From assembly GCF_014647155.1 (NCBI RefSeq), contig NZ_BMOQ01000007.1, forward strand, positions 1-64,000: 64,000 nucleotides of DNA, read 5' to 3'. Position 1 is the stretch's first letter; each line of letters opens with the position of its first letter. Below, one piece after another: positions 299-44,409 of this stretch. The stretch is from Halarchaeum nitratireducens (lineage in GTDB: Archaea; Halobacteriota; Halobacteria; Halobacteriales; Halobacteriaceae). Under the pieces are notes generated by a model. The model searched no databases, was not told the origin of the DNA, and worked only from the letters and a program-made list of their open reading frames with translations. Position numbers and translations under genes: made by a program.

Positions 299-2848
299 CT
301 ACTCGTACTCGATGCGGAGGCGCTCGCGTGCACCTTCGCGCGTCTTGAAGTAGCGTCGGTCGCCGTCCGCCGTGCGGACCGCCCACCGGTACGTCTCGCT
401 CTCGGGGCGGTACCAGTGGTCGGCCTGTCGCTCGAAGATCGAGTCGGCGTCGGTCTCGGGCCGCGTCGAGCGCGCCGCGTCGTTCGCAGCGTCGATGGCC
501 TCGGCGTGGTCAGTGGCATGCTCCGTCGTCTCGACGACGCCGGTGTCAGGAGCGTGTCCCACGTCGTCCGGGTCCGCGACGGACGCGGTAGCGGCGGGTC
601 CGTCGGCGCCGTCGAGTTCCCGGCTACCGTCGTCGACCGACGTCGCGTCCGGCCGCGTCTCGGGGGCCGGCTCGATCAGGAGCTCTCCGTCGATCAGCTC
701 CTCGTCGACCTCGAACCCCGGGCCGTAGCCGCTCTCGACGGCGTCGGTGGCCGCTCGCATCAGCGTCTCTTGGAGGTCGCACACCGCTTCGTCCGCCCCC
801 GGCGTGGCCTGTTCGTAGCTCCCGTCGCTCTGCATCACCCATCGACGGCGGTTGTCGCGCAGCGAGAGTTCGAGGATGAAGCGGAGTTGCGCGCGGAGCG
901 CGGGGGTCTCGACGGGCGTGACGGCCTCGACGCGGTAGTCGAGGTTGCGGGTCATCCAGTCGGCCGAACCGATGTACCACTCCGGTTCGCCCGCGCCGTC
1001 TGCCGCGTGCGGGTCCGTAGACCGCGCCCCGTTCTCGAAGTAGAAGACGCGCGCGTGCTCGAGGAATCGCCCGACGATCGAGTGAACCGCGATGTTTTCG
1101 CTCACGTCGTCGAGCCCCGGCCGGAGCCGACAGATGTCGCGCACGATGAGGTCGATCTCGACCCCGGCCATCGAGGCCCGGTAGAGCTCCGCGACGATCT
1201 CCGGGTCCTCCAGTCCGTTCACCTTCGCCACGATCCGGGTCGGGCGACCGTTTCGGGCGTGTGCGGCCTCGCGGCGGATCATCTCGACGAACCGTTCGCG
1301 CATCGTGACGGGCGCGATCAGGAGTTTGCGGAACTGATCGTCGAGCGTCGGTCCCGTGAAGAAGTTGAAGACCTTCGTGAGGTCCTGACCGATGTCCCGG
1401 TCCGCGCTCAGCAACCCGAGATCGGAGTATCCCTTCGCGGTCTGCGAGTGGTAGTTGCCCGTCCCGACGTGCGAGTAGAGCTGAACGCCGTCGGCCTCCT
1501 GGCGGACGACGAGTGCGGTCTTCGTGTGGGTCTTCAGCCCGACCGTACCGTACGCGACGTGGATCCCCTCCTCTTCGAGGCGGCGGACCCACTCGAGGTT
1601 GTTCTTCTCGTCGAAGCGCGCCTTGAGCTCGACCATCACCGCGACCTGTTTGCCGTTGTCCGCGGCGTCGATGAGGCTCTGGATCACCTTCGAGTCGCTC
1701 GCCGTCCGGTAGATCGCCGCCTTCACCGCGAGGACGTTCGGATCGTTCGCCGCGGCGTCGAGGAAGCGTTGGACGGTCCCCTCGAAGGAGTGATACGGGT
1801 GGTGGACGAGGATCTCACCCTCGCGGATCTCCCGGAAGATGTCGAGTTCGTCGTCGGTCGCGTCGCCGGCCGACGGCCGGAGTCGGGGGTGCGGCTTCGG
1901 CGTCCACGGGTCGAGTTTGAGGTCCGGGCGGTCCAGTTCGGTGAGTTCGAAGAAGTCCTCGAAGTCGAGGGGACCCTCGCGGTAGAAGACCTCGCGTTCG
2001 CTGACGTCGAGGTTCTCTTTGAGGATGTCGACGGCGCGCTCTGGCATGTCCGCGTCGACCTCGAGGCGGACGACGGTGGCGAACCGGCGCTGGTCGAGGA
2101 CGTCCTCGATGATGTCGATGAGGTCCTCGGCCACCTCCTCGTTCCGTCTCACCTCGGCGTTGCGCGTCACCCGGAACTTCGAGACGTCGACGACGTCGAG
2201 GTCGGGAAGCAGGACGTCGAGGTTCGCCTCGATGACGTTCTCGATGAGGACGTATCGCCCGGTCGTGTTCGGGACGGCGACGAGCCGGGGTTGGTTCGAC
2301 GGGATCTTGATCCGGGTGAACGTCTCCTCGCCGTCCGCCCCGCGCGAGAGGACGGCGAGAGAGAGCGAGAGATTGGAGATGAACGGGAACGGGTGTGCGG
2401 GGTCGAACGCGAGCGGCGTCAGCGTCGGGAGGATCGACTCCTCGAAGTGCGCTCGGAGCGCGTCGCGCTCGTCGTCCGCCAAGTCGTCGCAGTCGACGAC
2501 CTCGATGCCCGCGTCCGCGAGCGCGGGGCGCAGCTCGGTCAGCCAGTAGTCGGACTGACGCTCGAAGAGCGGACGGGCGGTTTCGAGGACCTCCTCCCAC
2601 TGCTCTTCAGGGGTGCGTCCGTCCGGCGTCGTCTCGGTCACGCCCGCGTCCATCTGTTGTTCGAGACCGCCGACGCGCTTCATGAAGAACTCGTCCGTGT
2701 TCTTCGTGAAGTACGCGAGAAAGCGCAAGCGTTCGAGCGGTGGGTTCCGCTCGTCCAGCGCCTCGCTCAACACACGCTCTTGAAACGCCAACTCGGAGAG
2801 CTCCCGATTGAGATAGTACGTCGGGTCCGCTAGATCTGGCTCAGTCAT
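299..2848 (-). CDS. ppk1: Polyphosphate kinase 1 with a C-terminal extension
   Basis: Cytosolic enzyme that reversibly transfers the gamma phosphate of ATP to inorganic polyphosphate. The 849-residue product starts MTEPDLADPTYYLNRELSEL, the usual PPK1 beginning. The catalytic half contains KTHTK near residue 438 (the autophosphorylated histidine of the family) and VHSIVGRFLEH near residue 591 (the second conserved histidine). PPK1 is usually about 700 residues. Here the core ends around 705 and is followed by an acidic Asp/Ala/Thr-rich linker of about 100 residues and a compact terminal piece (from about 807, RRYFKTREGARERLRIEYE at the end). The ATG at 2848 is chosen because upstream sequence is not PPK-like. 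Divergent from the CNNM gene. Confidence 0.95.
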   Translation of the reverse strand: MTEPDLADPTYYLNRELSELAFQERVLSEALDERNPPLERLRFLAYFTKNTDEFFMKRVGGLEQQMDAGVTETTPDGRTPEEQWEEVLETARPLFERQSDYWLTELRPALADAGIEVVDCDDLADDERDALRAHFEESILPTLTPLAFDPAHPFPFISNLSLSLAVLSRGADGEETFTRIKIPSNQPRLVAVPNTTGRYVLIENVIEANLDVLLPDLDVVDVSKFRVTRNAEVRRNEEVAEDLIDIIEDVLDQRRFATVVRLEVDADMPERAVDILKENLDVSEREVFYREGPLDFEDFFELTELDRPDLKLDPWTPKPHPRLRPSAGDATDDELDIFREIREGEILVHHPYHSFEGTVQRFLDAAANDPNVLAVKAAIYRTASDSKVIQSLIDAADNGKQVAVMVELKARFDEKNNLEWVRRLEEEGIHVAYGTVGLKTHTKTALVVRQEADGVQLYSHVGTGNYHSQTAKGYSDLGLLSADRDIGQDLTKVFNFFTGPTLDDQFRKLLIAPVTMRERFVEMIRREAAHARNGRPTRIVAKVNGLEDPEIVAELYRASMAGVEIDLIVRDICRLRPGLDDVSENIAVHSIVGRFLEHARVFYFENGARSTDPHAADGAGEPEWYIGSADWMTRNLDYRVEAVTPVETPALRAQLRFILELSLRDNRRRWVMQSDGSYEQATPGADEAVCDLQETLMRAATDAVESGYGPGFEVDEELIDGELLIEPAPETRPDATSVDDGSRELDGADGPAATASVADPDDVGHAPDTGVVETTEHATDHAEAIDAANDAARSTRPETDADSIFERQADHWYRPESETYRWAVRTADGDRRYFKTREGARERLRIEYE

Positions 2849-5967: not shown

Positions 5968-5987
5968 TTTTTAGGACAGCCTAAAAA
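5968..5987. promoter_or_regulatory. DtxR-box-like perfect palindrome in a divergent gap
   Basis: TTTTTAGG and CCTAAAAA are separated by ACAG, giving a perfect 8-bp inverted repeat whose core TTAGG-N4-CCTAA resembles the operators of DtxR/IdeR-type repressors. It lies in an AT-rich island midway (about 120 bp each way) between the DUF1508 gene and the 6108 gene. It is flanked by a direct repeat TTATGTGT at 5961-5968 and 5988-5995. A DtxR-like regulator is encoded at 7080 in the rightward operon, so autoregulation is a reasonable inference. Confidence 0.55.
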
Positions 5988-6107: not shown

Positions 6108-6899
6108 ATGGACGAGACACACATCGAGCGCGCGCTGGCGCGAGTCCGGGGCGAACGCGAGCGCGTCGACGCCGAACGGACCGCCCTCGATCGCTTCCGG
6201 AAGGACGTCGAGTCGATCGAGCCGGCCGCCGCGACGCGGGCCGCGGCGGACGGCTCTGCGAACGCTGGGACCGCTGTCGCGGCTGGAACGCCGAACGAAC
6301 CGGCGTCGTCCCCGGAGTGCCGTCGCGTCCGCGAGGCGTTCGTAGACACCGCCCACGACGCCGTTACGGCGCCGGACGAGGACCGTTCTGTCTCGGAGAC
6401 GATGCGGGAGGAATTGGGCTGGGAGGTCGCGCGCGCCGTCTCGCCGGGGACGACGACGGCGTTCACGACCGGGATCAAGCGGGCGGTGCTGTCCGCCGTC
6501 GACGAGCGCCGCCGGGAGCTACGGACGCTCGCGGGCGCGCTCGACGTCGAAGCGCGGTCGCTCGACGAGAGCCGCGAGGCGATCGAGGGGGTCGCGGAGG
6601 CGCTCGTCCGGGCGGACGGGACGTCGCCGGCCTCGCTCGGCTTCGACGGCCTGCGTGAGCGCCACGACGCGCTCGCGGGCCACCGCGAGACGTGCGATCG
6701 GGTCGGCGAGGAGCGACAGGCGGTGCTCGCCCGCTCGACGAACCGGGGGCTCGTCGGCGTCGAACAGCGGGCCCTCGCCGCGACCCTCTACGAGCCGCTG
6801 TCCGTCGACTACCCCGCGTTGGCGACGGTCGCGCGACTCGACGCCGTGCTCGACGAGCGACAGCGAACCGTCCGCGACCACCTCCTCCGACGGGGATGA
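6108..6899 (+). CDS. Haloarchaeal coiled-coil hypothetical protein (DUF7260-like)
   Basis: A 263-residue, Arg/Glu-rich, apparently cytosolic helical protein of unknown function. The N-terminus (RALARVRGERERVDAERTAL) is a heptad-like helix. The middle (about 65-170) carries REAFVDTAHDAV and EELGWEVARAVSPGTT, and the C-terminus ends in a long helix after SVDYPALATVARLDAVLDE. It is clearly related to the protein at 18484-19281 in all three parts. I believe both belong to the haloarchaeal DUF7260 group, but the number is from memory. ATG 6108 is chosen; the 38 residues upstream in frame look non-coding. Its stop overlaps the next start (ATGA). Confidence 0.7.
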   Translation: MDETHIERALARVRGERERVDAERTALDRFRKDVESIEPAAATRAAADGSANAGTAVAAGTPNEPASSPECRRVREAFVDTAHDAVTAPDEDRSVSETMREELGWEVARAVSPGTTTAFTTGIKRAVLSAVDERRRELRTLAGALDVEARSLDESREAIEGVAEALVRADGTSPASLGFDGLRERHDALAGHRETCDRVGEERQAVLARSTNRGLVGVEQRALAATLYEPLSVDYPALATVARLDAVLDERQRTVRDHLLRRG

Positions 6900-43358: not shown

Positions 43359-43838
43359 ATGGCTGATACCATCGAAGTGCTCGTCCCCGGCGGGCAGGCC
43401 AACCCCGGCCCGCCCCTCGGCCCGGAGCTCGGTCCCACGCCCGTCGACGTGCAGGCGGTCGTCGAGGAGATCAACGACCAGACCGCGGCCTTCGACGGCA
43501 CGGAAGTCCCCGTCACCGTCGAGTACGAGGAGGACGGCTCCTTCTCCATCGACGTCGGTGTCCCGCCGACGGCGGAGCTCATCAAGGACGAGGCCGGCTT
43601 CGAGACCGGGTCCGGCGAGCCCCAGAAGGACTTCGTCGCGGACCTCTCCATCGAGCAGCTGAAGTCCATCGCGGAGCAGAAGAAGTCCGACCTGCTCTCG
43701 TACGACACGAAGAACGCCGCGAAGGAAGTCGCGGGCACCTGCGCCTCTCTCGGCGTCACCATCGAGGGCGAGGACGCGCGCGGCTTCAAGGCCCGCGTCG
43801 ACGACGGCGAGTTCGACGACGTACTGGCTGAGGCGTAA
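43359..43838 (+). CDS. rpl11: 50S ribosomal protein L11
   Basis: A 159-residue ribosomal protein binding the GTPase-associated region of 23S rRNA. The N-terminus MADTIEVLVPGGQANPGPPL, the PPLGPELGPTPVD segment, VEEINDQTAAFDGTEVPV and the C-terminal RNA-binding part (KKSDLLSYDTKNAAKEVAGT) are all typical. In most haloarchaea rpl11 is near or followed by rpl1-rpl10-rpl12; here the next gene is unrelated and the 3' flank is a hairpin array that begins within the last five codons (LAEA-stop). Confidence 0.97.
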   Translation: MADTIEVLVPGGQANPGPPLGPELGPTPVDVQAVVEEINDQTAAFDGTEVPVTVEYEEDGSFSIDVGVPPTAELIKDEAGFETGSGEPQKDFVADLSIEQLKSIAEQKKSDLLSYDTKNAAKEVAGTCASLGVTIEGEDARGFKARVDDGEFDDVLAEA

Positions 43839-44019
43839 GCGACGTGAGAGCCAGCAGGACGCTACGCGTCCTGCGTTGTGCTTGCCGAGGCGTAAGCCGA
43901 GGCAAGCATTAGTGAGACGCGCGAGCGTCTCACGCAATCTGGCTGAGGCGTAAGCCGAAGTCAGTGCGAGCGGGACCTCCGGTCCCGCCTACGTTCTCGC
44001 CGAGGCCTGACGAGGCGAG
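43824..44019 (+). repeat. 57/58-bp periodic hairpin array re-using the rpl11 tail
   Basis: Four units begin at 43824, 43881, 43939 and 43996 (spacing 57, 58, 57). Each begins with a synonym of Leu-Ala-Glu-Ala-stop: CTGGCTGAGGCGTAA, CTTGCCGAGGCGTAA, CTGGCTGAGGCGTAA, CTCGCCGAGGCCTGA; the first is the real end of rpl11. Each forms a hairpin (e.g. GCTTGCC...GGCAAGC, 43880-43907, around GGC-GTAA-GCC). Between them sit further hairpins with different sequence but the same shape: GCAGGACGC/GCGTCCTGC (43854-43874), GTGAGACGC/GCGTCTCAC (43912-43933), GCGGGACC/GGTCCCGC (43970-43988). Likely a structured RNA tail; not coding. Confidence 0.75.
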
Positions 44020-44070: not shown

Positions 44071-44409
44071 CTATCGCTCGGCGAAGTACCTGCGCCAGTG
44101 GCGTTTACAGCCGGGGTTGAACGCGTGGCCACAGGACGGGCACGCGTCGTCGCAGTCGGCGTACTCGCGGACGGTGAGCGCCGCCCCGCAGGCCCCGCAG
44201 AGGACCGCCGGGTCGTCGAAGGCGTCGCGCGGGATCGCCCGGTGCTCGTGGTCGGCGACGGCATCGTGGCAGGCGCGACAGGGATAGTAGGCGTCACAGC
44301 ACGCCGCGCGGATGGCGATCACGTCGCGGGCGGCGTCGTAGTGCGCACAGCGGGTCTCGGGGCCGACGTCGAGGCCGCGGACGGTCGTCCCGGCGACCGT
44401 TCGCTGCAT
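44071..44409 (-). CDS. CHY zinc-finger protein
   Basis: A 112-residue zinc-binding protein of the CHY family. Ligands are CAHYDAARDVIAIRAACCDAYYPCRACHDAV (first ligands near residue 22), then HEHRAIPRDAF, CGACGAALTVREYAD and CPSCGHAFNPGCKRHWRRYF. In eukaryotes the related Hot13 helps mitochondrial import; in archaea the function is unknown. It starts at an ATG that overlaps the folE TGA by one base (TGATG), so the two are co-translated. Confidence 0.88.
   Translation of the reverse strand: MQRTVAGTTVRGLDVGPETRCAHYDAARDVIAIRAACCDAYYPCRACHDAVADHEHRAIPRDAFDDPAVLCGACGAALTVREYADCDDACPSCGHAFNPGCKRHWRRYFAER

Follow-up and report, generated by a model that had tools for sequence, protein, structure and literature searches.

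Why should the end of a ribosomal protein gene be found several times in a row behind the gene itself? In the 64,000-nucleotide stretch of DNA analyzed here (the window), which stems from a draft Halarchaeum genome of 3.14 Mb (G000), the coding sequence of ribosomal protein L11 (rpl11, 43359-43838, plus strand, Pfam PF00298 and PF03946) ends with L-A-E-A-stop. Sequence inspection and a repeat search identified four copies of this end in the rpl11 3' region, including the gene's own. A preliminary description had reported four units spaced 57, 58 and 57 bp, which is exactly the start-to-start spacing that we find, and had let each unit begin with a synonymous L-A-E-A-stop. The repeated ends are there, but the repeat starts one codon earlier, at the position of a Val codon (43821, 43878, 43936 and 43993), and the four tails span 43821-43838, 43878-43895, 43936-43953 and 43993-44010. 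The stop codons, said to differ among the units, are TAA, TAA, TAA and TGA, and thus only the last one differs. The frame shifts at unit 3, and readthrough therefore cannot account for the repeated ends, as had already been pointed out.

Units 1 to 3 each consist of a hairpin A, which spans the stop codon, and a hairpin B. Unit 1 (43821-43877, 57 bp) carries the live tail V-L-A-E-A-stop, the final codons of rpl11 forming its 5' arm, with hairpin A at about 43824-43853 and hairpin B at 43854-43874. Unit 2 (43878-43935, 58 bp) holds a displaced VLAEA-stop, a hairpin A with a tandem GA and a GUAA loop (43878-43909) and a hairpin B at 43912-43933; its homologues are units 1 and 3 of the array in Halarchaeum rubridurum, one of the near relatives (97% L11 identity). 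In unit 3 (43936-43992, 57 bp), AAT takes the place of the Val codon found in the other units, and the displaced tail reads N-L-A-E-A-stop, with hairpins at 43939-43964 (A) and 43970-43988 (B). Unit 4 (43993-44019) contains the most distal displaced tail, VLAEA-TGA, and a fold-back arm, but only hairpin A, contrary to the earlier view that every unit is a hairpin pair; its homologue in another Halarchaeum genome (G002, L007 unit 2) retains hairpin B. All units lie on the plus strand. The three intervening stems quoted previously are the B stems of units 1 to 3 at the positions given, and they make up 3 of the 15 perfect stems of at least 8 bp (loop 3-4) in the whole window. The next gene downstream, a convergent CHY zinc-finger gene (44071-44409, minus strand), lies outside the array. 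The repeated L11 ends and hairpins behind rpl11 are thus a real observation, with small corrections.

Since many hairpins arise in GC-rich DNA, chance repeats or an assembly artefact had to be considered. The array folds with -123.1 kcal/mol, compared with -91.1 kcal/mol in dinucleotide shuffles (z = -6.6), and none of 200 shuffles was as good. Independent assemblies of related species also hold homologous rpl11 arrays. These comparisons refute chance and artefact, to which we assign practically no weight. No Rfam family fits the array, the best match scoring 20.4 bits where the gathering score is 38.

Displaced ends are not a peculiarity of one species. A scan for a further tail and stop within 400 bp gave 20 matches in 14 of 169 distinct rpl11 3' flanks, whereas the reverse strand gave none and shuffles 0.2, and the displaced ends occur in at least four haloarchaeal families. 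Inspection added further cases: L149, where four further unit starts follow a VLAE tail, L150, L158 and L194. Most haloarchaea sampled have no array at rpl11. L11 tails vary just after a conserved YDD, and displaced tails may match their lineage (VLAEA in Halarchaeum, VLGAEEAAA in Halobacterium). Several, however, encode the tail of another lineage, which suggests that units may have been transferred between lineages. Successive tails read VLADEAAA, VLAAEASA and VLADEAAA in L082, VLAAEAEA and VLVDGAEA in L153, and VLVEA followed by VLADA and VLAADA in L140. Between coding and displaced tails, 49 of 51 changes fall at third codon positions, partly because the copies were found through protein similarity. 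Some displaced copies have decayed (the stop is lost in unit 2 of both L147 and L140), the last, most distal copy is often without hairpins, and Halarchaeum species share units in altered order.

Comparison of empty and filled sites located the boundary of the units. L156 has a single tail, and in L140, from the same genus, three units precede the matching tail and flank, a difference of 181 bp. L126 and L147 differ by 136 bp, or two 68-bp units, and L079 and L153 differ by 68 bp. All pairs point to one boundary between the Asp and Val codons, with matching flanks and the old end 68-181 bp downstream. Placed by these pairs, the boundary in the window is GAC|GT (43820-43821, plus strand), which separates the conserved Asp-Asp from the variable Val-Leu tail. 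In each single pair, insertion and deletion look the same; decayed copies and hairpin-free last copies suggest that units would be gained on the 5' side of the array. In L079, the old flank is joined to the new tail, which looks like the expected product of recombination between two tails.

Strict tail scans, which asked for 5 identical residues at the end or for 6 matching residues out of 7, had left rpl11 as the sole site, a view that was dropped when units were found at dnaK and at an enolase-superfamily gene (Pfam MR_MLE). In G000, all three genes act as hosts, as judged from a census of 644 kb of the 3.14 Mb. The dnaK gene of G000 (L233, G000:C5:120001-140000, about 1960-2046, minus strand) contains one in-frame 57-bp double-hairpin unit near the C-terminus, ..DVDES[PSDSSADQNASRSGDVDES]DDES, which repeats GACGTCGACGAATCG and is absent from two congeners (G001 and G002). 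A similar insert is present in dnaK of another genus in L265 and missing in L266; the in-frame dnaK insertions measure 57 bp and 54 bp. At several Halobacterium dnaK ends, a unit overlaps the stop with its hairpin A, whose start coincides exactly with GAC|GT, and displaced tails follow; L285 has two such terminal units and L270 one. We also note that in L271, L273, L276, L277, L278 and L286 the dnaK stop unit is followed by more hairpins, topped by GAGCGNAGCGAG, and by displaced acidic tails (FEADDADE-stop, for example). The MR/MLE gene of G000 (L229, G000:C5:40001-60000, about 1950-2090, minus strand) has FDEA/FDEV tails in tandem at its end, with a spacing of 53 bp. Such tails, with double hairpins in units of 51-59 bp, were also found at MR/MLE 3' ends in L292, L296, L297, L308 and L310, and arrays related to that of G000 are present in G003, L296 and L297.

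Units also occur in the interior of genes. In a Natrialbaceae genome, four in-frame 48-bp units re-encode DAVEH inside a gene read from its sequence as a histidine kinase. A histidine-kinase query was matched in 42 of 99 genomes (E <= 1e-5, a count of search matches), and eight of ten inspected loci contain units of 45-51 bp with a 7-bp hairpin A. The unit sizes, 45, 48 and 51 bp, are all multiples of 3. In histidine-kinase-like genes, the repeats lie at the ATPase-domain N box and encode VEHGSTSP..DA (L339 near 12709 in G258, and likewise L351, L353, L354, L355, L357, L360, L363 and L364). The peptides are specific for the host gene: VLAEA at rpl11, VEEDSEE at dnaK, FDEA at MR/MLE and VEHGST in histidine kinases. 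As a separate observation, an acyl-CoA dehydrogenase-like coding sequence of a Halobacterium genome (G025, L258, about 1460-1560) contains an in-frame insert with two hairpins, namely GCAGAGCTCGGCGAGCTCTGC and GCCGCCAGCGGCGG, and with GAGCAGA as a flank repeat.

Compensatory change in the stems, as claimed previously, is real: an alignment of 17 A hairpins from short-tail arrays has double-sided changes in 20 cells, compared with 7.2 in shuffles, and a covariation score of 0.357, compared with 0.150 in shuffles and less than 0.1 once partners were slid, the alignments being made of hand-chosen and partly related, thus non-independent, units with two rows misaligned at the 3' arm. A hairpins of longer tails behave alike. 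Each of the three compensated pairs includes a column (3, 6 or 9) that holds the third base of the Val, Leu or Ala codon, with bases 1 and 2 of the Leu and Ala codons fixed; in the histidine-kinase A hairpins, third codon positions covary again. A stop-spanning hairpin as a general feature of rpl11 was rejected, because such hairpins occur at 20% of rpl11 and 20% of control gene ends; they accompany the arrays.

Strong folding and compensatory change would also be expected of an RNA 3'-end element, in which tandem hairpins terminate transcription or protect or regulate the L11 mRNA, with copy number tuned by selection. Both rpl11 and dnaK are highly expressed, which would fit such a role. In Haloferax volcanii, moreover, hairpins were found upstream of 503 termination sites, and one of them terminated 59% of reporter transcripts (PMC7237163). 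An L11e terminator of this species has been described and serves as a tool (PMC8707807), and the array lies, like haloarchaeal L11 terminators, directly behind rpl11. However, stretches of T are the main intergenic termination signal (PMC7237163), and units 1 to 3 have no directly following T-run. The array is also missing from rpl11 of most sampled relatives. Stem mismatches in 57 units comprise 7 G-U and 5 A-C pairs, about equally rare as far as such small numbers tell, and thus give no sign of selection on sense RNA alone. The same architecture recurs at dnaK and the MR/MLE gene and, above all, in-frame inside the coding sequences of dnaK and histidine kinases, where a 3'-UTR role is impossible. 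The element for L11 mRNA stability or autoregulation that had been proposed is therefore unsupported, and we regard an RNA 3'-end element as improbable.

What the units have in common is a plan: a GT start, a hairpin A with a 5' arm that re-encodes the target, a hairpin B, and then GT again. Among 57 units from rpl11, dnaK and MR/MLE, 51 start with GT and none ends with G. A stems mostly begin within 3 bases of the unit start. B stems, which contain just 3 mismatches in 428 positions, mostly stop 2-3 bases short of the following unit. The unit start repeats the displaced target (12 of 12 bases at dnaK, for example), which usually starts with GT and as a rule follows hairpin B after 0-4 bases. 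A scan specific for this plan gave 22 matches at 6404 ORF ends, mostly at rpl11 or MR/MLE, compared with 2 when the downstream DNA was shuffled. Broad searches for double hairpins with direct repeats, and a relaxed anchored test, did not discriminate, because the background in GC-rich DNA is high. Only high-scoring GT-anchored matches exceeded expectation, and several of these are still chance matches.

The sequence of the units, by comparison, is not shared. DNA searches of the source genome and of other array-bearing genomes revealed no related unit away from rpl11 beyond short matches, and a dispersed repeat defined by sequence was rejected on this basis. A repeat family had been one of the options named in the preliminary description, with units scattered away from rpl11 as the sign of a mobile repeat; the repeat family is supported, and the scatter exists in architecture but not as DNA copies elsewhere. 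Searches for a virus, phage or plasmid carrying units gave no match, and no recombinase for the units was identified. CRISPR-like and integron-like readings, prompted by the spacing, found no supporting genes. Two side observations concern other palindromes. Near the middle of L218, L222 and L226, perfect hairpins follow one another in intergenic DNA, with variable stems but a conserved spacer, GGCCGTGCGAAC, between them, and they share AGCGGGACCTCCGGTCCCGC with hairpin B of unit 3 in the window. The palindrome TTTTTAGGACAGCCTAAAAA at window positions 5968-5987 and TTTTTAGGTGAGCCTAAAAA, located after a gene end in L295, resemble a site for a DtxR/SirR-type metal regulator.

On balance, we think that the array is probably built from small insertion units with a double hairpin, which belong to a haloarchaeal class; this reading draws on the architecture, the covariation, the empty and filled sites, the foreign tails and the other host genes. 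The units would move, or be copied, as elements. At rpl11, a unit would insert itself behind the Asp codon and ahead of the Val codon, bringing a new tail and stop and shifting the older end into the 3' UTR. Its first arm would repeat and re-encode the target, so that the host protein retains a working tail; the inverted arm would complete the stem, and hairpin B would close the unit. Repeated entry would build an array, and later recombination between tails could drop units and leave swapped tails. The hairpins may be recognized as structured DNA: the lack of a shared unit sequence favors recognition of structure, or copying, for example by template switching at hairpins. Against insertion units speak the lack of a carrier or recombinase in our searches and a common plan in place of a common sequence dispersed in the own genome, unlike in ordinary mobile repeats.

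The main rival does without a mobile element. The gene end together with its hairpins could have been duplicated in tandem, followed by unequal recombination and horizontal rpl11 exchange in polyploid haloarchaea; each copy would once have been the live end, hence the readable tails. The reordered units common to Halarchaeum species, the resemblance of the L079/L153 difference to recombination between tails, and the dominance of third-position changes (subject to the selection effect mentioned above) all agree with this, and because units are common to arrays of different species, much could be explained by duplication and exchange alone. They leave unexplained, however, why the GT start, the two hairpins and the size recur at unrelated dnaK, MR/MLE and histidine-kinase genes, and why the last, original end is often free of hairpins. 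We consider tandem duplication as the whole explanation rather unlikely, even though it may act alongside insertion. Rather unlikely as well is the strongest form of the insertion reading, a double-hairpin cassette without a fixed sequence, recognized by structure, that copies the target coding sequence into its first arm, can thus enter GT sites of essential genes with no loss, replaces protein tails and leaves arrays of former ends as a record; this would be a categorically new genetic unit.

If the units are indeed insertion elements, a tiny double hairpin rewrites gene ends and interiors while keeping them readable. Part of the variation of L11 and DnaK tails and the repeated VEHGSTSP segments in haloarchaeal histidine kinases would then have one cause, arrays would be a record of past gene ends, and the movement of transposase-free elements would become testable at defined empty and filled sites. 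Our literature search, which covered mostly papers outside subscription journals, found no paper in which such units or displaced ends of genes are described for haloarchaea.

Three known systems come close. The double-hairpin elements of Allomyces mitochondria (Paquin, Laforest and Lang, 2000), as described in PMC2800124, likewise consist of just two adjacent hairpins, vary in presence between close relatives (here L156/L140, L126/L147, L079/L153 and L266/L265) and occur within genes but away from structurally important parts. They are fungal and mitochondrial and, according to that account, have no flanking duplications, whereas the first arm of the haloarchaeal units repeats the target and the stem sequence is unconserved. 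PATEs and other small mobile repeats of Haloquadratum walsbyi (PMC3119063) are also haloarchaeal and transposase-free with near-terminal palindromes, terminal-only PATEs being as short as 52 bp. However, they have many copies, IS605-type related ends and no target duplication, in contrast to the present units, for which no dispersed sequence family was found and which repeat their target. Rickettsia palindromic elements (PMC10969869) are similarly palindromic and in-frame in unrelated protein-coding genes, but they measure about 150 bp and form ten families with conserved peptides, whereas the units described here are mostly 44-88 bp long and carry peptides copied from a segment of the host gene itself. 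The units thus miss a defining feature of each of the three, namely the absence of flanking duplication, the dispersed family and the conserved peptide, respectively, and they look like a little-noticed small insertion element at or inside genes across haloarchaea.
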